From Cliona cf. orientalis (Eukaryota; Porifera; Demospongiae; Clionaida; Clionaidae): a DNA stretch of 64,000 nt. Positions 12,499 to 60,651 of the stretch are shown piece after piece (positions within the stretch are counted from its first letter, which is position 1; each line of letters opens with the position of its first letter). Under the pieces are notes generated by a model. That model saw only the letters and a list, made by a program, of their open reading frames with translations, did not search any database and was not told the DNA's origin. Where the stretch lies: the NCBI GenBank assembly GCA_963930775.1, contig OZ005690.1, positions 11,682,411 to 11,746,410 of the forward strand. The letters are read 5' to 3'. Made by a program: the position numbers and the translations under genes.

Positions 12499-15400
12499 AT
12501 GGAAGCATCACAAAGACTGCATGCTGTACTAGTTGCCCTGTCACTTTTGTGCAATGGTCATATTATAAAAGGTATGACATTATATTTGTTATCATGTCAA
12601 ACTAGCATACTATTATGACAGTGTATATTTGACAGGTCAGGAACCAGTCATGCTTTATCCTCCTGGTATGGCTCCAGTTTGTCGAGGAAATCGGCTGGAA
12701 ATGACATGTATCGCAACAGGGGCAATTTTGGAATGGAGAATAACTCTTAGTAGAGATTATTCACGGCTTATCTCAAGTACCAGTCTTACATCAAACTTAA
12801 CAGTTACTCTATCAACCAGTACTGTTTTGTTCACTTTCTCACGAGAGTCAATTTTGCACGATTTGCCACTGATATCGATATTATCAATTGGTCGTGCAAA
12901 CGATGACCTAAATGGAACTGTGGTGAAGTGTTTAGATAGCACAGCAAGCAATTCAGTGTTCACTGTCATACACGTCATCAGAGAGCATTCTCACGGTAGC
13001 TATAAATAAAATTACTTAATTAATAGTATAAGCCGCATATACATACACAGAGCATTCTATCAAGATTATTAAAAAATAGCGTCTTCTCATTGTATGCTTA
13101 TTCTTCATGGATGTATAATATGCATAAGGCCATCAGAACTAACCTGACCCACTAGCTGTAAAATTTAATGCATCCAATAGCTGAGTTTACTACAGGCATA
13201 TTATACTGACTCAGACTTTTAATAGGACTGTTTATTTTTAAGCTACCACACAGCACAAGCCCTCTAGATAGCTGGAATACTACAAGTTTACATAGAAACA
13301 CTGACACTTGTAATTTTTGGTTAAATTATCATCCGCCCGACCAACCGACCCTACTATTTCGTGGTCATGTTAGTTATTAAATTTTATTCTGTGTGGCCTA
13401 AATTATATTATATACCGTAACACAGTGTGCTTTGCTGGTCTGAAAAATATAAATAGGCAGCATTAATGGCTCCTATACAAGTGCTCATTTCCGTATCATA
13501 GTAACTGTATGCTATGTCACGATTATTATTATAGCCAGCTATAGGTGTCTTATAGATCATGTATGCTTGCACTAATCTGCAAAGGACAGTACAGTTTAAC
13601 ACATGTTTTTCTCTTTAGGATTTGGATTTGTGGTTGCATTTGAAATATGAACATCGTGCATATATTATATAATATGTTATGTTTGCATAACCACAAATCC
13701 AAAGAGAGTTACTCGGTATTTTATCTAGGATTGGAATTTCGGGGGGGGGGGGGGGGGGGGGGAGGGGAATGTACAGAATAGGGGGTGAATTGCATGTGTG
13801 TCCGCCATGTGCTACAAATACGGTCTCAAAGGGGATAATTATTGCATAATTGCATAATAAATATGTAGTCTCAAAGGGGGTATTACTAAATCATTACTTT
13901 ACTTGTAGCCATGATGGTTGCTACATAAAGTAACGTACACAATGCTGGTGTACACACAGATTATATTATATACAATATTATATTACAGCAAATTTTAGGG
14001 GGGGGGAAATAGAAAGTTTGGGGGGGGGAAATCCCCCCCTAAAGGCCCTGGATAAAACACTGGAGTTACTGTAGTTAAGTTTGTATAATAACACATTTCT
14101 CATAAGAGTGATTTCACGATAAACAAGTTTGTTTTCATCAGATTCACAGGTTAATATTTCATTGCTGCCTGAACAGTTTGACAGTGATGGTGCTTTAGTA
14201 ACCCTGAAGTGGATTCATCAAAACTTCTATTCATACAATGTCAGTGTCGTTCCACATTTGGAATACAGTGTTGTTGAAATTGGCATAATTCAGTTGAAGA
14301 TCAATTACAATATGTTCTACAATGTTACTATCACAACATTACCTGCATGTGGAGAAAACAGTACCATTGATTTCATTGGATTATACTACTGTGAGTAAAA
14401 TTATTATAGTGCTGTATATATAATATTATTATTGATAAATATGTTTAGTCAGCTGTAGAACCCCACTCTATAATAGTTCCAAAGTAGAAGTGATTGGCCT
14501 AAGGTATCCAGCAATAGAGGGAACTATCATAAATTTCAATTGTCCTCCTGGTAAGATGCTCAGTGGACACAATATATCTGTGTGTACAAGGAATGGAGAA
14601 TGGATACCTGACCCTGACATTGTAGACTGTAAAGGTTGGTCTTGTGCTGAGTGTTTATATTTTTGACATTGTATACGCTCTAGATCTCCAGTTGCTATGT
14701 CTTAACAGTTATCATAGGCATATATTGTTGGCCATAGCTACAGTGCTGCAGAGCAAGAGTACAAACTTTATTATGTCTAAGCCAAAACACAATAGTAATT
14801 GCGTACTAATTGACAGCACATTCTTACACGATGACAACAACGATAGACGGACAAACCGATTGCTTTACCCCTTGCGCATGCACACGGGATAAAAACATTT
14901 GGCATAAGAATTGCTACTTCCACTTCCTGTTATTAAGAGTCCACATTTTAGGTACATGTATATCTAGAGGCTGTAGTGACATAATAATACTATCAATGGT
15001 ACCAGATAAGATGTCCAGATTAGCTTGCCTTCAGTTGCAATTGAAGTCAAATTTTCAAGATTTTTGCTGAAAAGCTATAATATAACCGCACTTGTATTGC
15101 TTCTATAATAATTGAACTCTATGGGGAAAATTGTGAAACATTTTTTGGCCAAATAGCAACAATTATTTTTTGGATGCTTACAAAGGAAATTAAAAGTTTT
15201 GCTCTCTTACTCCGTAGCACTGTAAGTGTTTGAGTTTATTAATTTTAGTTTGCTTGCAATGCAGCTGCAGTTTCACCAACTGACACAGATTATGATCATA
15301 AACTCCCAGGATCATTAATAATGATAATTGTGATTTCCAATATAATGATGTGTTTACTGTGTTCTGTACTTGTCATTATTGGAGTTTTTTGCCGGCATTA

Positions 15401-15554
15401 TTGCCACTCTCCACTGAAACGAAAGCAACAGGTCAATCTGCAGCATGTAGTGCCACCTGCTCCTACACAGGAAAAGGAAGGTACTCCACTGTATCAAGAA
15501 ATTCAAGATGTAGAATTTCAACAGAATTCAGCATATATTTCAGTTCGAAAGTAA
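12499..15554 (+). CDS. Gene B: Ig-FN3-CCP transmembrane receptor with ITAM-like tail
   Basis: Five exons: 12499-12571 (signal peptide, MEASQRLHAVLVALSLLCNG), 12636-12995 (Ig-like: VCRGNRLEMTC, LEWRI, NGTVVKC), 14142-14390 (FN3-like: VTLKWIH, YSYNVSVVP, YNVTITT), 14449-14634 (CCP/sushi: FSCRTPL, NFNCPPG, VCTRNGEWIPDP, VDC) and about 15265 or 15271 to 15554 (TM and tail). All joins are phase 1. The TM segment (MIIVISNIMMCLLCSVLVIIGVF) is followed by a basic stop, RHYCHSPLKRK. The tail has YQEI at 15492 and YISV at 15534 with 10 residues between, close to the ITAM pattern YxxI/L-x6-12-YxxI/L except for Val at the end. It ends TAA. The extracellular order matches genes D, E and F, but with one CCP. 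Likely a type I immune-type receptor; signalling is inferred. Confidence 0.8.
13738..13763. repeat. Poly-G tract
   Basis: A run of more than 20 G residues in the intron between the Ig and FN3 exons of gene B, with more G-rich patches at 13998-14045. Such runs are prone to length errors in assembly. Confidence 0.7.
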
Positions 15555-16320: not shown

Positions 16321-16675
16321 TTTTTTTAATACAAGGAGACCACACACCAAGCAGAAAAAAATGTCCGGAAACCACGACGTAGTTGAGCTGGATGCTTAGT
16401 AGAGCCATACAATGCAAGCAGACTGCCTATGGCCAAATTGGGTAAAGGTCGTCAAGTCTATGTACGCGCGTAGCCCCGCCCCTCACGCAGCGCGTGAGCG
16501 GAAACATTGCAAATGCATGCTTCCTATATAAACATATGGGAAAACTTCAAAGGGCCATAACTTTAATTGAACCAAAAATCTGTCCGGTCAAATCTCTTTA
16601 TTTAAATTTGCTTTTTTTCTACTTAGTGTATAATTTGCAGATCTGTAAACGATGGGATATAAAGAGTTATTTTTT
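16321..16675. mobile_element. CACTA-ended MITE (family M3), copy 1
   Basis: Begins with CAAGGAGACCACACACCAAG and ends TTTTTTCTACTTAGTG. The interior carries the conserved blocks AGAGCCATACAATGCAAGCA, CGCCCCTCACGC and ACTTCAAAGGGCCATAACTT. The same element occurs at 35041-35475, 44249-44651 and 44656-45040, and reversed at 46935-47336, 47337-47552 and 55808-56083. The consensus ends CACTAAGYAGAAAAA and TTTTTCTACTTAGTG fit the CACTA type. No transposase is present. It lies just upstream of gene C. Confidence 0.7.
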
Positions 16676-16707
16676 GTCGCAGCACTATTTGCAGGACCTC
16701 GTATAAT

Positions 16708-18916
16708 ATGTTACGGTATAGGTTACATAATTATTGTATGTATGATCTCTTACTCTATATATTTGTTATACGTGCAGGAATTACACAATCAAAGGTGACA
16801 CTGACAAGCAACCTGGACGAGAGGACTGGGAATATTGCATATCGCCACCAAATAGTCACCTTTCAATGTATTGCTCGAGGTAACGGCACACAGATTATCT
16901 CTTGGTTAAGCGAAGACTATATTGGATCAGGGGAAGAGACATTGCAGATAACATCTATTCAAAGAGTTGGGCACAAAACAAATAATTCCCAAAATCCAAG
17001 CACCATTGCTACTCTTGTTAATATCACTATTATTGATTCTGATACTGAATCAGAACTTAACGTTAGTGAAATTGTCTCAGAGCTTCAGCTTACAGCTTCT
17101 GTGCATCACCCTGCAGTGTCTTATGTCAGGTGCAGACTAAATGGCAACGGTGAATCTAGCACCATCACTTTCAGTAAGGCTGATATAATTTAAAAGGGCC
17201 GGATGTAATAATTATTAATATTAAGAGTGCCATTTTGGACTATGATGGTAAAATCAAGAATCTGTATATTAGTCAGATTCTGTTGTTAACCATCATTTTT
17301 TTTATTATAATATTATATAGGTGTAATAATATCACATGTAACACTAACAAATAATCTAAATGGAAGCAGTGCATATGCTGGTCAGAAAATAACCTTCAGA
17401 TGTATGGTAGAAGGCGTCAGTCGAATCCTCACTTGGAGAAGTGATGACTATATTGGCTCTGGACAGATACAGCTTCATAATCAAGGGCAAATTAGACATG
17501 ATCAAACATCTTCCACTGTTGCACATCTCATTAGCACCACTACTAATAATGATACTCGTGTGACTAAGGCAGTGTCATATCTTAACATCACAGCTTCTTT
17601 ACAACATCCAGCCTCTTCTGTCTCCTGCAAACTTAACAGTCATGGGACACCGAACATCTCTAATTTTTGTAAGGCTGATAGACTTATATGTAATAGTTAT
17701 TGACCAACTCCCGAGGTTTGTATGCAGTATAGAAGCACAAATCCCGAGGGCAAAGCCCGAGGGATGAGTGCTTCTATACTGCATACAAAGCGAGGGATTG
17801 GTCAATAACTATTTTCTAGCCCATTGTTTCCATGGATACAATAAACATGTTTTTAGCCCTCAAGAACTGTATGAATGTTTGCCCTGGCCCTCAGGAACTG
17901 TATAATAGTAAACATATGGACATGAGCCCTACAAGGAGGGACTGTATCACATATACAGTACCTTGTATACCTTAGTAACCACATAGCAACGGGCTAGAAA
18001 AATTATAATAATTATCTCTTGCCAGTATTATTAAGTTATGTGGATGTAGCAGCATGCAATTATTGTATACCGGCGATGCTTATAATTATTCTCGTTAATA
18101 TTGCAGCTGTTGTGAGATCAGATTTGACTTTGACAAGCAACCTGACTGAGAATAGGACAGCATATGATACACAGACAGTTATCTTTCAATGTGCTACCCG
18201 AGGAACTGGAAAAACTTTCTCTTGGCATAGTGATGCTTATATTGGATCAGAAAATTTGCAGTTTACACATCGTAGTCATTCTGGGGCTCATAGAATTAGC
18301 CCAACAAACAAAAACACTGTTGCTACTCTCATAAATATCACTACCGATGATGATACTGGAATAATAGAGTTTATATCGGAACTTAAAATCACTGCTTCTC
18401 AACAATATCCAAACTCATTTGTGATATGCAGACTTAATGGTGATGGAGCACGTTCTGAAATCCTTAATTTTTGTAAGGCAGATCAATACTGTTAGCTCTT
18501 CAATTTTTAAAAAAATTGCTATTTTAAATTTCTAGCAACTACTATTCTCAAGACAGTGGTAGAAACTATTAGTACCAATGCCATTACTACTGGTACTGAT
18601 AAGATGGAAAGCAATACCGCAAAACGTTAGTTGCATTGTGATTATGCATCTGGTACTTACAACAAGCAGAGAAAGTCGTGGAGTATCTAGATTTCCAAAA
18701 TTATTAGTGCATGCCTTTTGATTTTAGTAATAATTAGCATAGTCACACTCCATACTAGTCTCCATCTAGAACCAATTCAGGAACTGTATTAATTTTGATT
18801 CGGCCACTTAGTCTAATATAAGCAAAATTCATTTATGATTATCTTTTAATTAACCTATAGGCCCATCCTGCACCTCATTAGTCCTGTTGTTGGTGATGAT
18901 GATGGTGCACTATTAA
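16708..18916 (+). CDS. Gene C: three-Ig receptor with stalk and short hydrophobic C-terminus
   Basis: Three paralogous Ig exons, each symmetric 1-1: 16778-17173, 17321-17668 and 18107-18472. Each carries VTLTxNL or LTLTSNL, a Cys, W.S..YIGSG or YIGSE, and a second Cys before RLNG or KLNS. They match the Ig exon of gene A. A Thr-rich stalk exon follows (18536-18625) and then 18861-18916, which adds TSLVLLLVMMMVHY and TAA. The protein would therefore end inside a hydrophobic stretch with no cytoplasmic tail, as in GPI-anchored or tail-anchored proteins. If the GTTAGT donor at 18626 is not used, the frame stops at once (KR-stop) and the product is secreted. The start is uncertain: ATG 16708 reads through a hydrophobic leader (MYDLLLYIFVIRAG) straight into the first Ig, or a separate leader exon lies upstream. 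A second hydrophobic leader-like run precedes the third Ig (MLIIILVNIAAVVRS). Confidence 0.62.
17693..17812. mobile_element. Near-perfect 120-bp foldback in a gene C intron
   Basis: ATAGTTATTGACCAA at the left and TTGGTCAATAACTAT at the right, followed inward by TTTGTATGCAGTATAGAAGC and its complement, with a small loop at CCCGAGGGCAAAGCCCGAGGG. It is entirely non-coding and lies between the second and third Ig exons. It could be a MITE or, if transcribed, a strong hairpin in the pre-mRNA. Confidence 0.75.
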
Positions 18917-21432: not shown

Positions 21433-23644
21433 ATGATGGTCGATACCATGGCTAATTGTCTCAATTTTTATAATAATATTATTATGTGTATTGGGTTGTT
21501 GGTGAGCTGGACACATACTCAAGGTAGGATGATCTGGTTATAATATTAATTATGCCAACATTCATTATAACACTAGAATAATATTATAGCATGATATTAT
21601 TATGGTTGTGGTTATCGGTTATCAAACTTTCACAAGGTGCTGTGATCATCTCTCCTTCTGGGGTAGCCACAGTGTGCAGTGGAGGTCAACTGGAGTTGAA
21701 CTGTACTATTACTGACACTGGGAGCTTCGCTCTACTGGTGTGGAACATCATTCTGGTTCCCATACTGAATCTCAGCCAAGCAGTGTCATCCTCCAGTCCA
21801 AGTGATCAGGAATTCCAAAATTTCATCAACTCTACCAAACTCACTTTCTCAAGAATTTCCTCTCAAGGTAGTTCTCCACTCATATCAAGGTTATTGATCA
21901 GTGCCGTGAGCGACCATCTGAATGGCACTCAAGTGAACTGTATAAACTCCTTGACCTCAGAAACATCTTCTTTTACATTTGTTAATATCTCAAATGGAAA
22001 TCCAATCCAAGGTATAGTATCATAGTACAGTGGAACATAATTATTCATACCAGCTTCATTCCTCTTCCCTTGGATCTAGAGTCTACATGGGTATGAGGAT
22101 ATATAAATGACGTGTAAACATAATATTATATCTTCTATGGGGTGGTAATGGAATAATAGTGAAATGGTCCTAGCTTAGTAATGCTGAAATTCAATTAATT
22201 TTGGTAAGCTGAATGCCTATCATAGTAATTAATGTTCCTTGAGTTAAAGTTGCTAAGTATTCTGAACTTGCCAACTCACCAAAATAGAAATCTCGCCCAA
22301 AATGGCTCCCTGGCATACATGTAAAATTGTGTACTTGTTATTTACAATGGTTTAGAAATCAATGGAATAAATTTGATGGAGCAGTATCCATTTGACAAAG
22401 ATGGTGTTATCTTGACATTGCAATGGAATAAAACTGACTCCACTTACTCTTACCAAGTTACTGTTGTCCCAAATCTACCACTGAATTTTTCTACCACCTC
22501 AAGAGTTCACATAAAGGTCCCTTACAACTCATCACACAATGTGAGTGTCACAGTGTCATCTTGTGGGCAACATAATACAACCATCTTCTACAAAGAAGTG
22601 TCTTATTGTGAGTTAAAGATTTCTGGTTGATAGCATGCTTACTAAAGTTATATACCTCCAATACAGTGCTAGCTACTTGTGGAAATCCACAGGATCAGAC
22701 TAATGATCTTGTACATGTTCTTGATTTCACGGAACCAGCAGTAGAGGAAAGCATTGTGACTTTTGTTTGTCCTTTGGGACAAATACTCAATGGATCTAAT
22801 ATTTCAACATGCATTAATGGAAGTTGGTTTCCAGACCCCAGCATTCTTCAATGCTCAGGTCAATAATAATGCCGTTCACAAATAATGTTTTACTTTAAGC
22901 CAATTCTTGCAGTTGACTGTCACTCTCCTTCCCCACCTCCGAATGGATATATTCTTCCTTATACAAGCACTCTTGAAGGAGCTACGCTGACGTATGTATG
23001 CTGGAGTGTCCAACGTGGAACAGGACTATGTGGAGAAGTCAATAAAACAGCTGTTTGCAATGAGAGAGGACAATGGGAGCCAAGTGCAGATGATATCTGT
23101 ACACAGTCTAAAGGTGTAATAATGTCTTATAATATTATTATTATTCCCAAACATTAAGAGCATGAGTCCATACACACAAAGCCTAAGTTAAGAGCACACA
23201 ATAAGCTATATATAGACACCCTCACTATTGATTTTTGTTACTTATTACTCCTCATAATACCATTAGCACCACTAGCTTCTTGGCGTGAGCTCCTGAATTC
23301 ATGCACCACATACTTTGTTAGTCTTGTGAACCAGAAGGTCTGGCTCGCAAAACTAATACTTCGTTAACTTCATAATAGTCCTCATTTCTTACTACTATAT
23401 TATAGGAACTATGCTGAGTCAAGATGCCATAATAGCAGTTGCTTCATTGCCGTCAATTATTGTACTTGTTATTTGCTCAATTGTGTTCTTCATGTTTGGA
23501 TACTTTTGTGGCCACCATCGTAAACTGCAAGAACAGAGTTCTGTAGCTAGACCCCCAGTGTATGAAGATGTTCCTTCACATCACCGTGTAGAAGATCTGG
23601 AGTTAAACTCCAACATTGCTTATGCAATGCCTGTCATAAGATAA
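21433..23644 (+). CDS. Gene D: Ig-FN3-CCP-CCP transmembrane receptor
   Basis: Six exons: 21433-21523 (leader, MCIGLLVSWTHTQ), 21637-22011 (Ig: ISPSGVATVCSGGQLELNC, LVWNI, GTQVNC), 22356-22607 (FN3-like: LTLQWNK, YSYQVTVVP, HNVSVTVSSCGQH), 22673-22858 (CCP: TCGNPQD, TFVCPLGQ, CINGSWFPDP), 22913-23113 (second CCP: DCHSPSPPPNGYILP, TYVCW, GQWEPS) and 23406-23644 (TM and tail). Joins are phase 1 and four introns are 54-113 bp. The TM (ASLPSIIVLVICSIVFFMFGYFC) is followed by GHHRK. The tail has YEDV at 23561 and ends NIAYAMPVIR, similar to E and loosely to B. An alternative start at 21591 (MILLWLWLSVIKLSQG) reads in frame into the Ig exon. Many N-x-S/T sites fit an extracellular glycoprotein. Ligand unknown. 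Confidence 0.83.
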
Positions 23645-24822: not shown

Positions 24823-27500
24823 TTATTTTAACACGGGCTTTGCATAAGCAACGTTGGATTTTAACTCCAGTTCCTCAAGCTCTGTACGTTGATGTGGTAC
24901 AACAACATCCTCGTATGCAGGGTATCTTGTTACAGGATTCTCTTCTTGCAGTTTACGATGGCGGCCACAAAAGTATCCACACATAAAGAACACAATTGAG
25001 CAAATAATGAGTAGAGTGATTATCAGCGATGAAACAATAGCTATTATGGCATCTTGACTCAGTATAATTCCTAGTAAGGAAAAGAAAGGACATGAATATT
25101 ATACCTATAGCTAGAGCTCAGAATTTGATAACTAAAAATATACAATAGCTAGGGTACATTCAGGAGCTCATACCAACCAGCCAATGGTACGTAATGATGA
25201 AATAAATATGCTGCTATACCGTACTATAACAGAGAGGACATACTTGCTATCTAGCTGACGAGCTGATCATGAGACTTAGTATATTCATGTTACTGGTGAA
25301 AATTTATATTGTGGCTTTAAGTTTGTAGGGATGCACATTCCTCTACAAACGTTTGGATGCATACATGCATGAGGTGCATTCTGGAACGCCCAGGATATGC
25401 ACAGTTGTAGCTACCAAACATAGAAAATGAAGGGGAGGTGGGGTACCCCCTTCTGAAAAGTGGAGGGGGCAACCGCCCCCAACCCTCTATATAATGTAGA
25501 ATATATGCTTAATAAAAATAGCTAATGAGATAATAATATTATATAATATAATATTGCTGTAACACCTTCAGGCTGTGTACAGATATCATCTCCACTTGGC
25601 TCCCATTGTCCTCTCTTAGTGCAAACAGCTGTTTTATTGACTTCTCCACATAGTCCTGTTCCATGTTGGACACTCCAGCATACATACGTCAGCATAGCTC
25701 CTTCAAGAGTGCTTGTATAAGGAAGAATGTATCCATTCGGAGGTGGGGAAGGAGAGTGACAGTCAACTGCAAGAATTAGCTCAAAGTAAAAAACATTATT
25801 TGAATGGTATTATTATTCACCTGAGCATCGAAGATTTCTGGGGTCTGGAAACCAACTTCCATTAATACAAGTTGAAATATTAGATCCATTGAGTGTCTGT
25901 CCCAAAGGACAAACAAAGGTCACAGTACTTTCTTCTACTGCTGGTTCCATGAAATCAAGAACACGTACAAGATTACTAACCTGATCCTGTGGATTTCCAC
26001 AAGTAGCTGCATATGAAATAATGGGTAATTTATAAAGCATACCAATACCAAAGTCTTTAACTCACAATAAGACACTTCTTTGAAGAAGATGGTTGTGCTA
26101 TGTTGCCCACAAGATGACACTGTGACACTCACATTGTGTGGAGAATTATAAGGGACCTTTATGTGAACTCTTGAGCTGGTAGAAAAGTTCAGTGGTAGGT
26201 TTGGGACAACAGCAACTTGGTAAGAGTAAGTGGAGTCAGTTTTATTCCATTCCAACGTCAAGATAACACCATCTTTGTCAAATGGATACTGCTCTGTCAA
26301 ATTTACTCCATCAACTTCTGGAGTGTTAATTGTAGATATTTATACCATTAAGTTTATAGTAGGAAATTAAGTTGGCACGGATTTCAATTAATTTTGGCAA
26401 TTAGTAATAATTAATTTTAAAGATCACCAATTTAAGATAATTATTATTATAGTTACCTTAATGCGCTCACAGCTATGGTACATGGAATAATTATCATAAG
26501 CATTCAGATATCCAAATTTGAATATCAACAGTGACGTTAACATGTTTTAATTAATATACAATTCAAGGGAGGGAGGTGGCCAATTAAGAGGAAAGAGTGA
26601 AAGTGGTAATGAGTCCCCCATTTTAAAGTTAAGCATATTGAACTTCAGAAAAAGTACAAAGGTTTGTATAAAATCATGTTATGACACCTTATTCTTATGA
26701 ACACAGTTGCCCGGATTTGAGCAAGGGAGAATGCGTACATGTACTCTGTATGTGCTAAACCCTTCAAATTAAATTTTTATACAAGGCACATATATTATAC
26801 TCAGATTACTATAATAATATTTTTAGCTTTTGTTATTATAATAATCTTTACGTGAATAAGAATCTCTGAATCAGCTCCTCATGATCATCATTATTATTGT
26901 GCACACGCATTTCCATATAGTGTCATACCTTGGATTGGATTTCCATTTGAGGTGTAACAGAAGATGTGTCTGAGGTCAAAGAGTTTATTCATTTCACTTG
27001 AGTGCCATTCAGGTGGTTGCTCACGGGACTGATCAGTAATCTTGATACGAATAGAAAACTATTTTGAGGGGAGATTCTTGAGAAAGTGAGTTTGGTAGAG
27101 TTGATCACTGTTTGGAATGCCTGATCATTTGGACTGGAGGATGATATTGCTTGGCTGAGATTCAGTACGGGAATCAGAGTAATATTCCACACCAGTATAA
27201 TAGTGAAGCTCCCAGTGTCAGCTATAGTACAGTTCAACTCCAGTTGACCTCCACTGCACACTGTGGCTACCCCAGAGGGAGAGATGGTCACAGCACCTTG
27301 TCAAAGTATGATACCCGATAACCACAACCACAATGTCATGCTATAATTCTAGTGTTATAATGAATGTTGGCATATTTAATTATAACCAGATCATCCTACC
27401 TTGAGTATGTGTCCAGCTCACCAACAACCCAATATATACACATAATAATAATAATATTATTATAAAAATTGAGACAATTAGCCATCATATCGACCATCAT
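24823..27500 (-). pseudogene. E: inverted, broken copy of gene D
   Basis: Exon equivalents on the minus strand: 27500-27400 (leader), 27296-26929 (Ig), 26317-26066 (FN3), 26006-25821 (CCP1), 25766-25566 (CCP2) and 25070-24823 (TM and tail, ending NVAYAKPVLK then TAA). Order, phases and sequence follow gene D. Three lesions are visible. The leader exon has 10 extra bases relative to D, which shifts its splice phase. A TGA at 26991-26989 replaces the codon of the second conserved Ig cysteine (D and F have TGT there). About 10 bp are missing shortly after, shifting the end of the Ig exon. The FN3, CCP and TM exons remain open, and the tail keeps YEDV and a conserved AYA.PV ending. Either a recent pseudogene or a gene using another start downstream of the Ig exon. 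Confidence 0.8.
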
Positions 27501-27860
27501 GATCAGGTACGCTAGACTGACCTTTGTTCAGTTGTGTGCAATTTGAGACGCAAAAATTGATGTTTACATTATTATAGCTGTTTATGTAAGCTAGCTAGAG
27601 CCTCATAATTATTATAGTAGCTACTGTATTTTGTAAGCTTTTACATGCCAATAAAATAATTATTGATATCACTGTGACCAAGAGTATTATTATAATTATA
27701 CTCTTGATTGTGACCGAGTTGGGGATTAAGACCATTCTGAGGGGGAGGAATTTGAAGGAAATTTTGATGCCCCCTACAATAATTATATATAGCTATCTAA
27801 TCATGATAATAGGAATACCATAATAACAATAATGTACAAACTTATTACATACAGGCACAG

Positions 27861-28304: not shown

Positions 28305-28465
28305 TTTTTTACTGTACTCAAGTCTCATCCCCAGCCCCCTAGCCTGTCTTTTATGTTCACGGCATGCGTACGCGTGAAAGGACTACTCATCCTCTGAATC
28401 TGAAGACACTACGATCGCAGATGGTCACAATGAGTATGAATACATATTATTATATCGTAGCAGGC
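28305..28465. repeat. Direct repeat R2, copy 1
   Basis: Shares a block running from ACTTTTTACTGTACTCAA through GTGAAAGGACTACTCATCCT to TATATCGTAGCA with 29243-29403, differing at few positions. The frame reads SSSESEDTTIADG, which recalls an acidic N-terminus, but no gene can be built around it. Confidence 0.65.
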
Positions 28466-29242: not shown

Positions 29243-29403
29243 CTCAATGCTGTACTCGAGTCTCGTCCCCAGCCCCCTAGCCTGTCTTTTATGTTCACGG
29301 CGTGCGTACGCGTGAAAGGACTACTCATCCTGTGAATCAGAAGACACTACGATCGCAGATGGTCACAATGAGTATGAATACATATTATTATATCGTAGCA
29401 TGG
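29243..29403. repeat. Direct repeat R2, copy 2
   Basis: Second copy of the block at 28305-28465, with a short extra piece near its start and a shared right end at TATCGTAGCA. It lies about 100 bp upstream of the Ig exon of gene F, so duplicated regulatory sequence is one possibility and a solitary transposon end another. Confidence 0.65.
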
Positions 29404-29503
29404 GTTCTACTATTGCATACCTCACGCTTATTAAACAGTGAGGCATGCATGATCGTGGCATCATAGGCCTTGAATAGCTAGCTACCTATGTTTTTCCACA
29501 CAG

Positions 29504-32500
29504 GTGCTGTGACCATCTCTCCTTCCGGGGTAGCCACAGTGTGCAGTGGAGATCAACTGGAGTTGAACTGTACTATAGCTGATACTGGGAGCTTTGCTGT
29601 ACTGGTGTGGAATATTACTCTGATTCCTGAAAATGCAGCTACCTCGAACTCTATTAATCATAGCCGAGCCATAGAGTCTGCTGGTCCAAGTGATCAGATA
29701 CTCCATTTACTGATTAACTCTACCAACCTCACTTTTTCAAGAATCTCCCCTCAAAGCAGCTTTCCACTCATATCAAGATTACTGATCAGTCCCGTGAGCA
29801 ACCACCTGAATGGCACTCAAGTGAATTGTATAAACTCTTTGACCTCAGAATCATCTTCTATCACAGTTATCAACATCTCAAATGGAAATCCAATCCAAGG
29901 TATGACACTATACAGCGTTGCATGAAGTAAGAAATATGCATGCAATGATTATGATGAGGGACTCTTAAAAACTTGAAAGGGACTTGCACTAATTTGGCCC
30001 CACATCCTTCATCTCCCTAATTGGCATATTGTGGTAAATAGAGAAATTAAGACGTATATAAGATGTACTACGCAGCATTGTATTTGGGCTGGGGGGGGGG
30101 GGGGGGAACTTCATACTAGTAGTGGGCAAGTGTTTTGATCTAAACAGATACCCAATACTAATTGAGGCTCACTTCTGGCCAGCGCCACTGAATTAAATAG
30201 CTTTATTGTCGAGATACTAGCATTATTGAAAATAATTTGATGTTGATTGTATAACATTTTTTAGCCACGTGGTTATCTTATTCATGATTGGGTACCTTCA
30301 CACACACAATTATAATATTAAACTGAAATCTCAGAGACTATAATTATCATAGAGTCGGTATAGACTCTATAAGTAGGGATGGCACGGATATGCCATATAT
30401 GTAATACATTACAAATACCCAAATATCTCAAAACAGGTAACTTCATAAAATTTCTAAGTGTGAAAATCAGAATCTATAGCAAGTTATCTAATAAGACCAA
30501 GATCATTCATCAACTCAATTGTATATGCGAGAACCAGATGTTCAAAAAATGGTCATTTGTCAATCTTTCTTTCTTTCTATATAGTTTCAAAGGGCTAGCT
30601 CAAGATTGCCTTGATCTCTCATCTTTGTTTGAGTATAAATCCATTCCATTTAGTAGCGTACAGTGCAGTGGCACGCTAATTTCGCATTATCTTGACATTT
30701 ACGTAATAATGGGTATGTACGGCACATTGACAACACTGGGCGTGTCTGATACGCCATTTTGTGATATAATGCGCATGCTCAGAATGTGTTGCCATGGTGA
30801 AGTCATGTGATAGCTCCCTGGCCCTCGGCGATTCCCCGCTCCTCGAGCCTTGCACAGGCTCCATGCCATCCATGATCTATTCAGCTGAGCACTAGCGCTG
30901 CACGCGCTAGCAAGTAGCTCGCTTATGCCTAGCACCTAACTTGTTCATTAAGCACCCTTGACTTGCATGTGGAAGATATTACTGTTTTTGCACCCCTCAA
31001 AAAGCAAGTGTAGGGATGTATAGTGGATATGATTATCCCTACAATCTTATTTATGTACTTTTTGACCCTGCCATCCCTACTTCATCCTTCAATTTTATTC
31101 AATTGTTTTTATACTTGTAATTTATTATAGCGGGGGTATTGATCACATTTATATTCGAAACATGAACAGCATGATAGTTCAAAATACAGGGGTGGCCAAG
31201 GTACTGAAAGTCATGGGCCAACATCTCAATATTAAAATACACGTCGGGGCCATTTCAGTACATCACCAAATATAATGTATAGTATGATAGCTAGCAATGT
31301 GTGCTGTGACCCACCTGACTGCAACTACATTAAAAGGTGAGGTGCGGTTAACAGATATTAATCACCGATTGTATTTCAAGCTTGAGGTATATAGCTATAC
31401 ACTTGAATCAATCCATAAGGAGAGCTGTTTCAAAGGATCACATCATTTCAATAATTAACAATTGCAGCTCTATTTCATACACAGTATATAGCTAGCTACT
31501 AAGCAGTATGATCATGGATATGTGCAGACCACATCCATTTCAGATAGCTATGAGTAGCTAGAGTACACTATTTCATGCATAGCACAACTACTGTCAGGGG
31601 CCATAAAAAATTGGTCAGGGGCCACAAACGGCCCCCGGGGCCGCATTTGGCCATTCCTGAAATATTGATAGGTAATTTTTTAATTTTGTACAACCAATTG
31701 TCAGAGGAGTTTGTGGGTGTGGCCTTGGTCATGTGCTGAGCAGCCCCTGCTATTGACAGTTGATCATGATACTTCACCTAAAGTAAAAATAACGGAAGTG
31801 CCAATAATGCTCCATGGGGATTTCAATTTCTTACTACCACAGGCATGTGTGTATGGTGAATTTGCTGGATAATTAGTTGCCAAAAATAGCCAAATTTTAA
31901 TTAAAAACCTCTCCAAAGGTACACACTACACGATAAACAGACTGAGTGTAATTTTTTCTATAGAAGTTGATGGAATAAATTTGACAGAGCAGTATTCATT
32001 TGATAAATATGGTGTTACCTTGACATTGGAGTGGATTAAAACTGACCCCACTCACTCCTACCGAGTTGCTGTCGTCCCAAACCTACCACTGAATTTTTCT
32101 ACCAGCTCAAGAGTTCACATAAAGGTCCCTTACAATTCTCCACACAATGTGAGTGTCACAGTGTCATCTTGTGGGCAACATAGCACAACCATCTTCTTCA
32201 AAGAAGTGTCTTATTGTGAGTTAAAGATTTCTGATTGATAGCATGCTTACTGAAGTTATACCTCCAATAATATAGCTACTTGTGGAAATCCACAGGATCT
32301 GGTTAGTGATGTTGTACAAGTTTTTGATTTCATGGAACCAGCTGTAGAAGAAAGTACTGTGACCTTTGTTTGTCCTTTGGGACGGACACTCAATGGATCT
32401 AATATTTCAACGTGCATTAATGGAAGTTGGTTTCCAGATCCTTCAAGAGTGAATTGTGCTGGTATTATTATTATTATTGTTACAGATTTCTGTGTAGCTT

Positions 32501-34944
32501 GTGACATTATAATAATATAACAGTGTGGTTTCTATCAGGTACGACCACTGTGACAACAACAACTGCTTCACCGCTCCCACAATTCCCACTTGTTGGCACT
32601 ATAGTGGGAAGCTTGTTTGGAGTCATTCTACTCAGCATCTTTTTTGTGATTGTGGTGATTGGTCTTCTCTTTAGGGAGAAAATCAGAGGTACACTAATGC
32701 ATAAACTAGAAACCTAGCTTTTTAGAGTATAACATATCTCACATATGCAATTGCACCTTGAAAGAATCCCTTACATGTAACTAGAGCTCTGTAGAGCACA
32801 TACCCTGCGTGCACATTGCTCAATCTCTTTCTGTACATTAGTATAGCTATATCTTACATTATGATTTGGTTCCATAGGGCTTTGGATTTCAGTCAGTGGA
32901 TCCGGACAGTAGCCATAGCTTTTGTAGCTAGCACAAAGCAAAACATTCGATCTTTAATTTATCAGTCACATACCAGATGGTGGGCACATGAGCATAATTA
33001 ATGGGCATGCATTATGCATTGAGTAGGCACTGTTGATAGGCGTGGCTACGGTGGCCAACAAAAGTGATGCTCGTGTACCATGCTCCTCGATTTAAGGCAC
33101 ACTGAAGCCAGTTTTTTGCCAAATTCGATTGATTTGTTATGCTTATGAGTCGCTTAGACGCCTACATCTTGAGATATGGCGATTTTTGTGCTAATGACAA
33201 CAACGATATCACAATCGATTACTTTACCCCTTGTGCATGTGTGCGGGGTAAATATCATGTATTATGATTAGATGGAGTACATGTTGCTTCCTAATATAGG
33301 GTGGTCTGCCTTGCACAGAACTTGTAAACCAGAATTTGAAAGGTAACTAGATAGTGTAAGGATAGCTACAGCCTCGTACCTTGTTTCATGATCAGTCCAT
33401 TCTAAAACATGGGGCTTGCTTACTGATAATATTATGCAACTGCATGTATACTCCTGGTGGCTTAGTTATCTGTATCTGGTTGCGGTAAACCACATGTTTA
33501 TACAAGTAATTTTTCTGTGTGCTTATACGTAAATAATTATTGTAGTCATTTCTGGCTGTTGATAACAATGGTTCACTGTTGGGGGGCACATCGCATACAT
33601 CAAAGCCATGATGTTACTTATAATGTGTGGAATTATAGGCTCTATACTCCCAAGAGCTAGCATGTGACTTTGCTTGTTTTGATAATAATGATTTGGATTC
33701 TCAGTGTCAATACAGATGTTGAATTAAGCCCTCCGCATACATACAGTGATAACGTTAACAACAATTTCAATGTAAGTTATACACTTCATATACTTGATAA
33801 TATTACTATTAATTATTTTGGACAAAAGACTGCTGAGAGGGGTCTGGTGTATGCAGATATTGGTCAGTCGTCCTTTAATCGATTGCAACGCCCTCTGCTC
33901 AGTATTCCTGCTCTTGAAGATACTCCCATCGAATACGCCAGAATAAACCACAAATCTCTCTCAGATAAACAAAGAAATTCACCAATCACTTTTGATGGTA
34001 CAACACCAATATACCGTATAGCCAGAAAATATGGCGGAGAATTAAATTTGGCGGTTTAGCGGTCTATATTATAACCGCCAAATTAAAATTTCCTACTCGC
34101 ATATATTATAAGTATGGCAATCCCATACCAAACCACCAAATTTAAATCTGCCAATGTTCTTGCAATAGCGATTTAGGGCTCAACCACCATTTTAATTCCC
34201 ACCAATATTTCCGGCTATATGGTATAGTAAATTTGCATTAATTGTCATCATTAAGTAATACCAACCCTCTGGGGTCTATAAGCCCTTGGTAATACATGCT
34301 CTTACATGCTATAGTAGTTGTGAGGCATCAATGTTTTGTTGCACATGCAGATGAATCACTTCGTGTTAATCTGGATAATCTACTGATTCAACTACGGCCG
34401 CAAGTAGGTCCTAGATGGTACCAGTTCGGAGAGGCTGTAGGAATAAGTAAAGATGTGCTGGATAAATTTGTTAAGCAATGTTCTCCCGAGGATTGCATTA
34501 TTGAAATGCTGGACTACTGGCTGAGAAGTAGCACTAAACAACCAACTTGGAATGATATAGCAAAAATTCTGAAAGCAGTCAACCTTCCACAATTGGCACA
34601 TGATATTGAAAATGTCTACTCCACTGGTATAATAATAATAGTAATAACAATAATGAAATACCTGACTGGTATCAATGCATGCAGGCAAACTACCGATTGA
34701 GGTAGAAGCAACTTGGATCCCACCATGCCCAGTTCAAGATGACGACTTTATTACTGCAGAATTACCACCACCAATTCCACCAAAGTCTCTGATCTCAACT
34801 GAATCAGTTAAATCTTTGTCTCACAGATCTCAAGGAATTGATTGTACCCGACAAAAGATGCCAGTGACCGTGGAGAATGAGCCAATACCAGCATTGCCTC
34901 CAAAACCAAATATGCTTAATATTCCACCTAGGCCACCCAAATAA
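29504..34944 (+). CDS. Gene F: Ig-FN3-CCP receptor with ITIM-like tyrosines, Death domain and SH3-ligand tail
   Basis: Exons: 29504-29899 (Ig), 31964-32215 (FN3-like), 32276-32461 (CCP), 32539-32688 (Thr-rich stalk and TM), 33716-33771, 33829-33997 (cytoplasmic), 34351-34626 (Death) and 34685-34944 (Pro-rich, TAA). Ig, FN3 and CCP are close to gene D. The TM (FPLVGTIVGSLFGVILLSIF...) is followed by REKIR. The cytoplasmic part has LVYADI (Tyr at 33850) and IEYARI (Tyr at 33934), both matching the ITIM pattern [ILVS]xYxx[ILV]. The Death domain shows RWYQFGEAVGI, LDYWL and PTWNDIAKIL. The end carries PPPIPPK, PALPPKP and PPRPPK, typical SH3 ligands. All splice phases agree. The leader exon is not found. 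The architecture suggests a surface receptor coupling to both SH2/SH3 and Death-adaptor pathways; this is inferred, and I know of no named family with this order. Confidence 0.8.
29900..31963 (+). other. Long intron of gene F
   Basis: Contains a G run at about 30090-30107 and a sequence shared with 35491-35550 (30349-30400: AGTAGGGATGGC, GGATATGCCAT). A 143-codon open frame at 30379-30810 is rejected as coding. Confidence 0.5.
32780..33250 (+). repeat. Dispersed repeat R1, copy 2
   Basis: Starts with TAGAGCTCTGTAGAGCACA and ends with the hairpin TTACCCCTTGTGCATG/GCGGGGTAA, as copy 1 at 2626-3275. Lies in the intron of gene F between the TM and cytoplasmic exons. Confidence 0.5.
33716..33997 (+). 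other. Juxtamembrane exons of gene F with optional 57-bp intron
   Basis: Exon 33716-33771 ends at a good donor (AAT|GTAAGT) and the next starts at AAAAG|ACTGCT (33829). The 57 bases between are a multiple of three and have no stop in frame, so both the spliced and the retained form would keep the ITIM-like tyrosines and the Death domain in frame. Gene A has a comparable phase-1-to-0 exon (4712-4770) after its TM segment. Confidence 0.55.
34012..34224. mobile_element. MITE family M2, copy 2
   Basis: 213 bp, ends TACCGTATAGCC and GGCTATATGGTA, interior matching copy 1 (2767-2978) with scattered changes. It lies 14 bp after the donor of the last ITIM exon of gene F. If that donor (GATG|GTACAA) were skipped, the frame would run about 20 codons into the MITE and stop, giving a receptor without Death domain. 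Confidence 0.85.
34351..34626 (+). other. Death-domain exon of gene F
   Basis: A single 1-1 exon of 92 codons encodes the whole six-helix Death fold: a Leu-rich first helix (LRVNLDNLLIQLRP), the conserved Trp (PRWYQFGEA), VGISKDVLDKFV, a fifth-helix LDYWLRSS and PTWNDIAKILKAV. Death domains bind partner Death domains in apoptosis and NF-kB adaptors. Because it is a self-contained symmetric exon it could have been inserted by exon shuffling. Confidence 0.85.
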
Positions 34945-41190: not shown

Positions 41191-41384
41191 TTGTGTGACA
41201 GTGAGTCCAGTACGCAAGTTCAAGTGCATTCAGATCAGGATCACTGTAGGCTGGCCTCTTCGTACAACCATGAAAATGAACATGTCCAGATATTAAAGTG
41301 GCGTAATTTGTGAGTGATTTACCTTCTCGTTACGCGGCGTAGCCCACTTAAATATCCATCCTTCTTCTGACTGCACAGCCTCTA

Positions 41385-41631
41385 TTAAGGTACCATTTAA
41401 TTGCGTGGGCGTGAGCGTCAGGAATGGCTAATTCAATTAGCGAATCGTGAAGGGGCGTGGCCGAAGAGGCCATACGAGTGCTTTTGGTCGAAGGTGGGCG
41501 TGTCCAGAATCGGCCAGGGATGATTATGCGCGTGTAATTAGCGACCGGAAGTGGCCCCTGAAGAAAAGGCCGGTAATTGCCCACATCAAAGCAAGATCAA
41601 AGCATTTTTGCTTAACTATTAACCGCAACGA

Positions 41632-41666
<35 letters not shown>

Positions 41667-42408
41667 ATTAGGCCTAATTAAGCATGTGGGCGTGTTCCTG
41701 GCACTGTGTGGAGTGTGTGCGTGTGCGTTAATGCAGGTTTTATTGCTTCCGATTGGGCGTGGCTTCACGGGCCAGTGCTTGGACATCGGGGCCGGGGACT
41801 TGGCTGCGGCGATAGGTGGGCGTGTCCCGGATGCGGTGGTGACCTTTGAACCCGTCCAGGAGGCTTTGGGGGCGTGGCAGGAGGTGAAAGGTGAGGCCAT
41901 GTCTGTTAATGAGGCACTGTACGGCGGTGCGATCGAGGGGTCTGTACGGCCGTGCGGAAGCTGACGATGGTTTGAAGCGGATGTGGTTGCGATGACGTGT
42001 TGTTACTCCGCCCACACAGGAAATGAGGTGAGCTCTTGCGTGGGCGGTGTGGCAGAACGGCCTCCAAGTGTTTGTGTGTGTTTTGGCCTTGAGGAAGCTG
42101 TGTGTTTTAATTGGGATTGATTGTGGGCTTCCGGTGGACATCCGGTGGTTAGTAGGCACTTGATTGAGAATGGTGGTCCTTGGGGAACAGGGTGGGGCTG
42201 TTTTGGGCGTGGCCTGGCCCCTCCCTTCCGGCTCGGCTTCCGGTCCATGGAGGATATTAAATGAACACTTCCGGCTCTAGCAGCCACACCCCTGAGACCT
42301 GTGCAATTAAAAGGGCGTGGTTACACAACATGCACCTCACTAATGACTTTGATGTGGTTTGGGGGTCATATCCCCACCTCACGCCCACGCAATTTAATGG
42401 TACCTTAA
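41385..42408. mobile_element. TTAA-flanked non-autonomous transposon T1, copy 1
   Basis: 1024 bp from TTAAGGTACCATTTAATTGC to its inverted complement ending GGTACCTTAA. TTAA at both edges is the target-site signature of piggyBac-like elements. An almost identical copy lies reversed at 57218-58240. The interior has an A run of about 30 (41632-41662) and at least ten GGGCGTG motifs. Open frames (for example minus 42287-42003) are shared by both copies but resemble no transposase. Probably mobilised in trans. Confidence 0.82.
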
Positions 42409-47552: not shown

Positions 47553-47786
47553 CTGTGCGTTATTTAGAATGTACTTGCATATAAGCGCATGTGCGCATGC
47601 GTAGCGCTTTGGCGTTCTGTTCCTCGTGCATGTATTCTTGACTGTCAGTTTCTGAAAAGAATCAAGACCAGGAGTGCACAATCGAACTTTTCTTCGTCTA
47701 CCAACTGTTGTAAGTGTGAAATAAAGTAATCATTTGACTACTTGTTGATAATTCACGGTGTATTAGTATAGACCATAGCGATACTA
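47553..47786. promoter_or_regulatory. 5' flank of the Helitron coding region
   Basis: About 230 bp between the truncated M3 copy and the Rep ATG. It should hold the Helitron 5' end and promoter. I could not assign the terminal TC or a terminal inverted repeat with confidence. Confidence 0.3.
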
Positions 47787-50234
47787 ATGCCTGTACCTGC
47801 AAAGCTGTGTAAATCATGTGGCGAAGCGAACAATGTTCGCGCAATGGTTTGTATTAGTTGTGGGGAGTGTTTTAGGAAGCGAGGTCGTCCTAGTGGTACT
47901 ACCCAACAAGCTAGGCGATGCCCCGAGTTTCACAATGCTATAGAGCTTCCACGTGATTGGTGTCACTCAAATGAATTGGTGAACATTGACGATGAGCTCC
48001 TAGATGCATGTTCTCGTAGAATTTCACAGCAGCGTACCTTTGATCAAAAGCCACTGGGTTTAGCTGTGTGTTACGGGTGTGGGCATCTGTTGTGGCATGT
48101 TGTTGATACTGTCCATACCTTCCTTGTGGACAAACCCAGTGGCATGAGTGAAGATGAGGCGCCTGCAAGTGCTTATTTGCGAGCTGTACCTAGCTGTACT
48201 GCGGGATTTGTTTACACTGAGAGGGGTACATCAACTAAAGAGCGATGGTACTCCTGTGCCTATTGTAGGTCCAATACTATTCCATCAAACCAGCATGTTG
48301 GGTGTGTCTTTGATCCTAATTTAAAAGTGAAGCCTGTCAGTGAATGGGATATGAGCTTTCCCACAGAGATACAGTCTCTAGCAAACCAATATGAACGTGG
48401 ACAAATGTCTGTCTGTGGCTTATTTTCCAGTACTGTCAGGGAGGCAAGCATGACTCAATATCGCCATCTTCAAGGTGAAGTGAATGCTATCACCAAACTC
48501 GATAAGCATTACCATGGTCTGTTTGGTTTCCTAGCTGTTAAAGACAGTGACATCTGGGAGAAGAGTCCCTCACCTGCATCGTCCTTGCGTATCAAAAGGG
48601 CAGTACAGTGGATGCATGCAAACAACCACCTTTATTCCAAATTTTTTTCCCAGTATAAGACACTTATGCGATACTGTAAGCCCAGCTTCATCAATCCCAA
48701 GCTTTTAGAGGACCAAAGTATATCACTTGAAAAGCTTTTGGAAGATGAGGCTGCTGCCATGGCATTCCCTTTGGATGCAAAATACTTTGATGATTTTCCT
48801 GTCATACGGGGTGATATGCACGATGATATTGCGGGCCGTCAGTATCCCCGTCCTGAATTAGCAAAAAGCATAGTTAACCTATGCAAGGCTAAGTATGGAG
48901 AAGAATTCCTTGATTGCAAGGCTTTTCCACACCTCCACCCATGGGGCTATGGGGGATGGTATCACAAGTGCCCCATTCCATTTAACGTCCATGTTAAGAT
49001 GAGGCTCTTTGATGTGCGTGGGTTTTATGCAGAGGATCGTTTGTATCCTTTCTTTAAGTATGACTACATGCTGAAAGTCCGCCTCCGCATGCATGAGGCC
49101 CGTAAAGTTGTAAAAGTACAAAGTCTATCTGAGCCCCTGACTGCAGAACGAGTATCTGGCCCATCTGATCCATACTCAGTCTATGGGACTGAAATTCCAA
49201 GGATTATTCCTGGTAGCAAGGAGTTCTGGAGGTCATTTGGCCTTGATCTTGTAGCCTTTGTAGAACAGAGGGGTTTGCCTAACTTTTTCCTCACCCTCAC
49301 AGCCTATGATGGGTGGCCCCAAGTGCAAGCCACTTTAAGAGATGGGTGGGGTGCATGTGCTAGTGAGCTTGAGGTGCAAGATCTGGCCAAAGACCTCTCT
49401 GATAGGCAGACTGTCGGATTCAAACCTCAAATCTCTGTACTAGCTGCAGAGAAGAGATATGACTGGTTTATGAGCATTTTAAGATCACCAGAAGGTGGCC
49501 CACTTGGAGTAGTAACTGATTCTATTGTCAAGAAAGAGTACCAGCGCAGAGGTGCAGTTCACTGGCACATGTTGATCTGGGTAGAGCCAGGGACTGCACC
49601 TCCGCATGCTGTGATGGCAGAGATGCCACGTGCAGCTGATACTAGTGATGTGAGGGCTGCCTACCTTAGGAAACTTGTTGAAAACATGCTCCAGCACAAA
49701 ACATGTTACCCATCCCGTTGTTTCAAGGGTAGTCATGGGAAGGTACTGACCAAGTGCAAGTATGGGTTTCCATTTGAAGTCCCCCATGAAACTGTCTGTC
49801 TTGATGAAGATGGAGTTAGGTACTTGTATGTGCGTCGACATGACGAAGATAAAAATGTAGTACCTTACAACCCCGAGATAGCTATCCTCTGGGGTGCAGC
49901 TCACAACATACAGATTGTGTCCATGTACTTGGCCAAGTATATCTCAAAACCTGAGCCTAGTCTGAAGATAGAGCTCCCAGAGAAGTGCAGTGATCCACAG
50001 AGATTTCTCAGAACACGTGTTGTTGGCTCAGTGGAAGTGCTTGATGTGCTCATGGGCTTCCACCAGAATCAAATGTCTAGGCAAGTGATATTTCTGCAGA
50101 CTGAGCTCAATCCTTGCCAAAGAATGCTGAAGCCAAAGTTTGAACTTGATTCGCTCTCTGAGGATAGTGAGGACATTTACTTGCAGACCAAGCTAGAAAC
50201 CTACCTGATCCATGAAGAGGCCTACTCAGCTTGA
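47787..50234 (+). CDS. Helitron Rep (HUH nuclease) portion
   Basis: 815 codons. The N-terminus has a CxxC-x10-CxxC zinc-ribbon (Cys 8, 11, 22, 25), followed at once by an AT-hook-like KRGRPSG. The Helitron N-domain follows. Rep motifs: FFLTLTAYDGWP at about 500-511, the HUH pair in GAVHWHMLIW (His 592 and 594), and the two-tyrosine motif YLAKYISK (Tyr 714 and 718). All key residues are present, so the nuclease is intact by inspection. The frame ends in EEAYSA-stop; the expected continuation (LTYPEFYQWW) is in the next frame, which shows a one-base frameshift near 50205-50215. No intron signals are seen. Confidence 0.88.
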   Translation: MPVPAKLCKSCGEANNVRAMVCISCGECFRKRGRPSGTTQQARRCPEFHNAIELPRDWCHSNELVNIDDELLDACSRRISQQRTFDQKPLGLAVCYGCGHLLWHVVDTVHTFLVDKPSGMSEDEAPASAYLRAVPSCTAGFVYTERGTSTKERWYSCAYCRSNTIPSNQHVGCVFDPNLKVKPVSEWDMSFPTEIQSLANQYERGQMSVCGLFSSTVREASMTQYRHLQGEVNAITKLDKHYHGLFGFLAVKDSDIWEKSPSPASSLRIKRAVQWMHANNHLYSKFFSQYKTLMRYCKPSFINPKLLEDQSISLEKLLEDEAAAMAFPLDAKYFDDFPVIRGDMHDDIAGRQYPRPELAKSIVNLCKAKYGEEFLDCKAFPHLHPWGYGGWYHKCPIPFNVHVKMRLFDVRGFYAEDRLYPFFKYDYMLKVRLRMHEARKVVKVQSLSEPLTAERVSGPSDPYSVYGTEIPRIIPGSKEFWRSFGLDLVAFVEQRGLPNFFLTLTAYDGWPQVQATLRDGWGACASELEVQDLAKDLSDRQTVGFKPQISVLAAEKRYDWFMSILRSPEGGPLGVVTDSIVKKEYQRRGAVHWHMLIWVEPGTAPPHAVMAEMPRAADTSDVRAAYLRKLVENMLQHKTCYPSRCFKGSHGKVLTKCKYGFPFEVPHETVCLDEDGVRYLYVRRHDEDKNVVPYNPEIAILWGAAHNIQIVSMYLAKYISKPEPSLKIELPEKCSDPQRFLRTRVVGSVEVLDVLMGFHQNQMSRQVIFLQTELNPCQRMLKPKFELDSLSEDSEDIYLQTKLETYLIHEEAYSA

Positions 50235-51717: not shown

Positions 51718-51738
51718 GATCCTGTACTTACTAGTGTC

Positions 51739-60648: not shown

Positions 60649-60651
60649 CTG

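Follow-up and report, generated by a model that had tools for sequence, protein, structure and literature searches.

According to the accessible text of a recent review, the proteins proposed to act in allorecognition show no conservation among sponges, cnidarians, and ascidians, while signalling of the ITIM/ITAM type is a recurrent feature of the systems of cnidarians and ascidians (PMC12065747). The fuhc FcoR receptors of Botryllus are clustered Ig and sushi receptors that carry ITIMs or hemITAMs and are encoded beside partner receptors, and in these respects they resemble the sponge gene family described here. They differ in the order of their domains (V-Ig, sushi, and two C2-Ig), and the accessible part of their description, with which the family was compared, does not mention a Death domain (PMC12065747). 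The Alr genes of Hydractinia likewise form a large IgSF cluster of 41 genes (PMC11999971) and bear ITIM/ITAM motifs (PMC12065747), and no Death domain is mentioned in the accessible parts of these two descriptions, on which this comparison is based. In primates, SIGLEC11 and SIGLEC16 are opposing Ig receptors encoded head-to-head, with an ITIM tail on one partner as in the present family, and gene conversion maintains the similarity between their N-terminal Ig exons, according to the accessible text (PMC5701461). The sponge Ig-TIR receptors and an Ig+CARD gene resemble the present gene in joining an Ig ectodomain to an innate-immune signalling domain, but this domain is TIR or CARD and not an ITIM pair with a Death domain, and single or six genes are reported in the accessible text (PMC6208332, PMC12909245).

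No described Ig-ITIM-Death receptor was recognised in the open-licence PMC literature on such an architecture or on sponge immune Ig genes, within the accessible parts of those texts. To our knowledge, no receptor with Ig domains, ITIMs, and a Death domain is known. Here we analysed a stretch of 64,000 nucleotides (the window; C2:11682411-11746410) in the 216.8-Mb genome of the sponge Cliona cf. orientalis, which contains a gene, designated gene C, whose predicted product has this composition. By analogy, gene C would function most like the paired receptors of vertebrates and the receptor clusters of Botryllus and Hydractinia. Our main reading of the sequence, which we hold with about equal belief and doubt, is that gene C may be one member of a paired-receptor-like complex with an unusual output through ITIMs and a Death domain. 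The gene C family is a candidate system for the recognition of self and non-self or of microbes. If this is true, ITIM/ITAM signalling would recur in a clustered Ig family of a sponge as well, here through canonical ITIM pairs, and recognition would be coupled directly to cell fate by the fused Death domain. The named loci allow polymorphism to be compared with graft outcome.

When the full-length gene C protein was searched against 5.8 billion proteins, no match at E 1e-3 was found among the 7994 candidates sharing most words with it. A profile of the Death exon detected 678 relatives among 1858 candidates in the protein collection. Since some of the best 120 are the same animal's own records, one of them being the window, we claim no other species from these relatives. 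Fifteen of the Death-relative proteins were read, and P0086 was the sole one with the second ITIM and the Death domain. It duplicates the letters of L024, a Death locus described below, and is therefore not independent evidence. Among viral contigs, 156 stretches fitted the search pattern, and no relative of gene C was found.

Gene C was modelled on the genomic sequence by splice sites and phase. Its exons span 29359-34944 of the window on the forward strand, are joined at AG/GT junctions, and chain in phase into a predicted 625-amino-acid type I protein. The order is a leader exon (29359..29437), a V-like Ig exon (29504..29899), an FN3-like exon (31964..32215), a sushi exon (32276..32461), an exon for a Thr-rich stalk and the transmembrane segment (32539..32688), a short juxtamembrane exon (33300..33342), a short cytoplasmic exon (33705..33771), a two-ITIM exon (33829..33997), a Death domain exon (34351..34626), and a proline-rich C-terminal exon with the stop (34685..34944). 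The Ig, FN3-like, and sushi exons are all of phase 1-1. The two short exons were placed by splice sites and phase, and the signal-peptide-like leader and the transmembrane segment were assigned by eye from hydrophobicity. The original prediction had placed one type I protein built of phase-consistent exons at 29504-34944. Nine exons were indeed found there, each with an AG acceptor and all but the last, which closes with a stop, with a GT donor, and the frame is unbroken through to the TAA at 34942-34944. That extent had missed the tenth, upstream exon, which adds a hydrophobic leader along with the start; it closes in phase 1, and its donor is GTGAGG. Since this phase-1 end fits the phase-1 Ig exon, the leader exon completes the model. 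Gene C as a predicted sequence is thus confirmed as real and slightly longer than first given. A 151-nt direct repeat (97%) was found at 28312-28462 and 29250-29400, covering the region just upstream of the leader start, the start included. Because it reaches over the start of the leader exon, the 5' end of gene C is partly duplicated.

The ITIM-like tyrosines and SH3-ligand tail that had been proposed were also read from the sequence. The two-ITIM exon encodes LVYADI and IEYARI, both of which fit [ILVS]xYxx[ILV] and are cytoplasmic, behind the transmembrane segment of the predicted type I Ig protein. The proline-rich exon encodes PPPIPPK, ALPPKP, and PPRPPK, motifs found by eye, and this PxxP exon recurs in the paralogs.

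A search of the genome with the gene C tail gave at least 130 matches, about 120 of which were Death-exon places on several chromosomes (53 on C2). With the ectodomain, at least 158 matches were obtained, and among the Ig matches listed nearly all were on C2. In a 1.67-Mb region of C2 (10.98-12.65 Mb), the related places numbered at least 109 for Ig and at least 32 for Death. Among the matches listed, 11 of these 32 Death places had no Ig in the 12 kb upstream; of the remaining 21, 20 share their strand with the nearest upstream Ig, and one has its nearest Ig on the opposite strand. Within 10 kb of the Death places, again among the matches listed, a same-strand Ig lay upstream of 20 of the 32, an opposite-strand Ig lay upstream of 6, and a same-strand Ig lay downstream of 7. 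Because adjacent genes are often on the same strand, this agreement of strands is support and not a clean test. By its sequence, gene C belongs to a large family of predicted germ-line recognition receptors, which is clustered and has a recurrent ITIM-Death tail. The gene itself had been correctly perceived at the outset, but its setting had been drawn too narrowly, missing both the megabase cluster and two short-tailed ectodomain paralogs alongside. Other clusters of related Death exons were seen on C3 (about 4.25-4.36 Mb), on C10 (about 7.57-7.63 Mb), and elsewhere; almost no Ig match was listed there, and these genes may have different ectodomains.

A large and diversified family also suits a sensor of microbes or symbionts, in which the variable Ig domain would bind microbial ligands, the Death domain would drive defence, and the ITIMs would merely tune the response, with no self/non-self role between individuals. 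This account fits with the accessible reports that sponge immune genes, NLRs among them, commonly contain Death domains and that Ig-TIR genes exist (PMC12909245, PMC6208332), and with the exploitation of mammalian CEACAM paired receptors by pathogens, as stated in the accessible text (PMC5112662). On the other hand, the ITIM pair and the sushi/Ig make-up resemble those of the Botryllus FcoR allorecognition receptors, as far as they are described in the accessible text (PMC12065747). We consider the microbial sensor possible, if somewhat unlikely.

The complex in which we would place gene C includes its two neighbours. Gene A (21433..23644, forward strand) is a paralog with a leader, Ig, FN3-like, and sushi exons, a further sushi-like exon that falls short of the cut-off (19.6 vs. 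20.7 bits), a transmembrane segment, and a short tail (YEDV...NIAY). Gene B (24823..27544, reverse strand) has the same layout and lies head-to-head with gene C; the exon ends of both genes are approximate. At the protein level, genes A and B are 77-79% identical to gene C in the Ig domain and 81-90% in the FN3-like exon, and reading of both genes found neither an ITIM pair nor a Death domain. Their shared ectodomain and differing tails indicate that gene C combines an A/B-type ectodomain with a different membrane and signalling part. The short tails of genes A and B bear YEDV and N[VI]AY, and tyrosines are conserved across the seven short tails compared. The gene A short tail matched 75 places at E up to 10, of which 71 were on C2 and 30 reached E 0.001. 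The short tails do not fit the ITAM pattern, and any activating role for them is therefore putative. In gene B, a TGA at 26989-26991 replaces the second Ig cysteine, so that gene B may be a pseudogene and gene C's own partner may be dead. At 12640-15554 of the window (forward strand), a further family Ig exon (about 12640-13000) and a transmembrane segment with a short tail (15249-15554; tyrosines PLYQEI and SAYISV) probably represent another short-tailed gene. A short-tailed paralog resembling gene A was also seen on C5 (8080116-8082295; identities of 72% in Ig, 77% in FN3-like, and 73% in the tail).

Among the matches listed, seven adjacent Ig places were arranged head-to-head within 6 kb, and six of these pairs were examined. 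The Ig exons were more alike than the next exons in three of the six. The Ig and FN3-like identities were 86% and 23% in the L069 pair and 93% and 32% in the L070 pair, and an inverted repeat of 312 and 360 nt, respectively, covers about the Ig exon. The difference was less sharp in the L076 pair, in which the Ig DNA was 96.6% identical over 378 nt and the FN3-sushi part 86%. The relation was reversed in the window pair of genes B and C (FN3-like 90% vs. Ig 79%). No preference for Ig was seen in the L074 pair, whose Ig and sushi pieces were both about 88% identical, or in the L075 pair (Ig 78%, FN3-like 77%, sushi 79%), in which both genes are short-tailed. Gene conversion of the putative ligand-binding Ig exon is a reasonable reading of the L069, L070, and L076 sequences, for which SIGLEC11 and SIGLEC16 offer a precedent (PMC5701461), and not a general rule here. 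Related ectodomains with differing tails were found in the L069 and L070 pairs as well as in genes A and B compared with gene C. SIGLEC11 and SIGLEC16 differ from this arrangement in having no Death domain and in forming one pair and not a cluster; in the sponge, homogenisation of Ig is seen in three of the six pairs examined, and an activating role of the short tail is putative.

A bolder form of our reading is that the region would be a megabase paired-receptor locus for self and non-self, a simple animal's counterpart of the leukocyte receptor complex. The inhibitory arm would carry its own Death domain, loss of ITIM-SHP signalling would directly license the death of the contacting cell, and the Ig exon would be shared by gene conversion in some opposing pairs. 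We regard this form as doubtful. The broken partner of gene C and the restriction of the Ig effect to half of the pairs lowered our confidence in it and in the main reading alike.

The Death domain predicted at 34351-34626 was borne out by a domain search. Pfam Death (PF00531) scored 28.2 bits on the 599-amino-acid gene C chain and 33.4 bits on the exon alone (cut-off 22.6), and it matched 19 of 21 family Death exons. The gene C exon was absent among the best 150 places of a generic Pfam Death scan of the genome. A single-sequence structure model of the exon had a pLDDT of 79, and its Foldseek matches were headed by the Death domains of FADD, RIPK1, TNFR1, TRADD, and ankyrins. The FADD Death domain, at rank 2, gave a TM-score of 0.81 and an rmsd of 1.9, the E-values being modest (best 0.033). 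In a profile search, Fas was the best match (E 0.037). These data suggest that gene C shares the Death fold of Fas, TNFR1, FADD, and RIPK1 and that its Death domain is most similar to those of Fas (by profile), FADD (by structure), and RIPK1. Compared with the Fas/TNFR1 class, gene C has Ig, FN3-like, and sushi domains in place of the TNFR cysteine-rich repeats, and has an ITIM pair in addition. TNFR repeats, ZU5, TSP1, and TIR were all absent from a Pfam scan of the 599-amino-acid chain at E up to 1, and assignment of gene C as a TNFR, UNC5, or Ig-TIR receptor was excluded by this domain content.

UNC5 receptors have extracellular Ig domains, TSP1, ZU5, and a cytoplasmic Death domain, and are not known to have an ITIM pair. 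Gene C resembles them in that a single protein combines Ig on the extracellular side with Death on the cytoplasmic side, and YxxV/I motifs can act as endocytosis signals, so that gene C could be conceived as a developmental or adhesion receptor of the UNC5 or dependence type, whose Death domain signals without ligand and whose tyrosines act in trafficking and not in SHP recruitment. The size of the family, the diversity of its ectodomains, and the lack of ZU5 in the scan argue against this view, as does the position of the UNC5 Death structures at rank 38 and lower, under FADD, RIPK1, and TNFR1. We judge it improbable.

The ectodomain had been predicted to contain Ig, FN3, and sushi domains. 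The sushi domain stood, with 17.5 bits on the 599-amino-acid chain (under the cut-off) and 23.0 bits on the exon alone vs. the cut-off of 20.7. Gene C alone gave no Pfam Ig match, and the Ig assignment is carried by the family: Ig_3 was matched by 6 of 18 Ig members (best 6e-6), and a profile of the 18 matched antibody V domains in PDB (best E 3.9e-5). The FN3 part of the claim is weak. Since fn3 was matched by only 1 of 12 family members (E 0.0014) and the best PDB match had E 0.14, the exon at 31964..32215 is called FN3-like only. A structure model of the Ig domain from two window sequences had a pLDDT of 37 and was discarded as unusable.

Five paralog stretches, picked for an Ig place upstream of a Death place and by similarity to gene C, were fetched for comparison. 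The order Ig, FN3-like, ITIM exon, Death, and PxxP exon on one strand was found in all five, in agreement with the single protein first proposed. Judged by similarity to gene C, one of the five (L071) has a recognisable sushi exon before the tail and two (L070 and L071) have a recognisable transmembrane exon; the L069 gene has a transmembrane-like exon by eye. The median pairwise identities among the six genes (15 pairs each) were 40% for Ig, 34% for FN3-like, 48% for ITIM, 62% for Death, and 39% for PxxP. These values indicate that the recognition and linker parts are more variable than the Death domain. The donor of the Death exon is of phase 1 in all six genes, with a nearby phase-1 acceptor in five. 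The architecture of gene C exceeds chance, as its order and strand recur in five of five paralogs and the Death-exon phases also recur.

Recurrence of the tail was evaluated at 28 different Death places, each with a flank of 1.5 kb (L009, L011-L021, and L023-L038; L010 and L022 are gene C again). The two-motif ITIM exon of the family was present upstream within the flank at 21 of the 28. With L016, whose ITIM exon lies about 1.7 kb upstream and was seen in the longer stretch L071, and with L024, the total was 23. No ITIM exon was found in the flank examined at the other five (L018, L021, L025, L027, and L028). At 20 of the 28 places an ITIM exon reached a similarity score of 45 or more, and all 20 exons retained both tyrosines. 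The two tyrosines are the sole invariant columns of a 20-row alignment (mean column identity 35%); this outcome is favoured by the choice of rows, most of which also matched a tyrosine motif and which were picked once that motif had been seen. In L024, divergent ITIM-type motifs (CIYADV and VEYAEI) and the Death domain occur in one open frame of 166 residues, and we rely on this locus because merely 29 residues part the second motif from the Death domain. An open frame in L015 runs through a likely intron and was not taken as one exon. The original prediction had raised a separate transcript for the Death exon; the unbroken phase, the paralog order, and the single frame of L024 make this unlikely. 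That the Ig-sushi and ITIM-Death exons belong to two adjacent genes merged by our model is highly improbable: the model was read from genomic DNA, introns of 2064 and 611 bases divide parts of gene C, and an ectodomain near-identical to those of genes A and B could be a recent duplicate adjoining an unrelated tail, but the phase is unbroken and the same order is kept in all five paralogs even though the Ig identities between the genes are 32-66%.

The paired-receptor-like reading calls for effectors, and candidates were found in the genome. The best tyrosine-phosphatase place is on C8, where two SH2 places precede it on the same strand (SH2-SH2-PTP). An SHP-type protein can be read from the frames at this locus, whose second SH2 stretch matched human PTPN11 structures at E 3.4e-62, the first four residues of the query being inexact. 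The genome is thus predicted to encode an SHP-2 relative. Two more SH2-SH2-PTP arrangements on C4 (7445030-7460998, and 7505653-7513694 on the reverse strand) are possible additional genes for SHP-type phosphatases. The genome also contains 65 DED places, and several frames contain two.

For the gene C receptor, we infer the ligand, phosphorylation, partners, direction of signalling, and biological role as follows. The diversified V-like Ig domain, which the FN3-like and sushi modules would hold out, would recognise a ligand carried by a microbe or another cell, and clustering by the ligand would allow Src-type kinases to phosphorylate both ITIMs. The predicted SHP-2 relative, with its SH2 domains in tandem, would be recruited to the phosphorylated pair. 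Clustering would also gather the Death domains, which would nucleate a FADD/RIPK-type complex with a caspase or NF-kB output, and SH3 adaptors would dock on the proline-rich tail. Most probably, the Death output would be gated by ITIM-SHP signalling, which would place brake and effector in one and the same receptor. The short-tailed relatives with related ectodomains, some of them head-to-head with a Death gene, would form the opposing or tuning arm of the paired-receptor system. The link from contact recognition to cell death or NF-kB signalling that had originally been suggested is retained here as a conjecture of this kind.

Other elements of the window were noted as well, the open frames among them by eye. 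Open frames at 97-516 and 16663-18495 (forward strand) resemble exons of another Ig-like family (LTLTSNL...YIGSG...). A 406-amino-acid open frame at 59431-60651 (reverse strand) resembles a Gypsy-type retrotransposon integrase, and long open frames at 47772-53937 (forward strand) are Helitron transposon-like (replicase/helicase-like). The Helitron-like frames are bracketed by inverted arms at 41383-42375 and 57252-58242, which are 97-99% complementary and about 15 kb apart.
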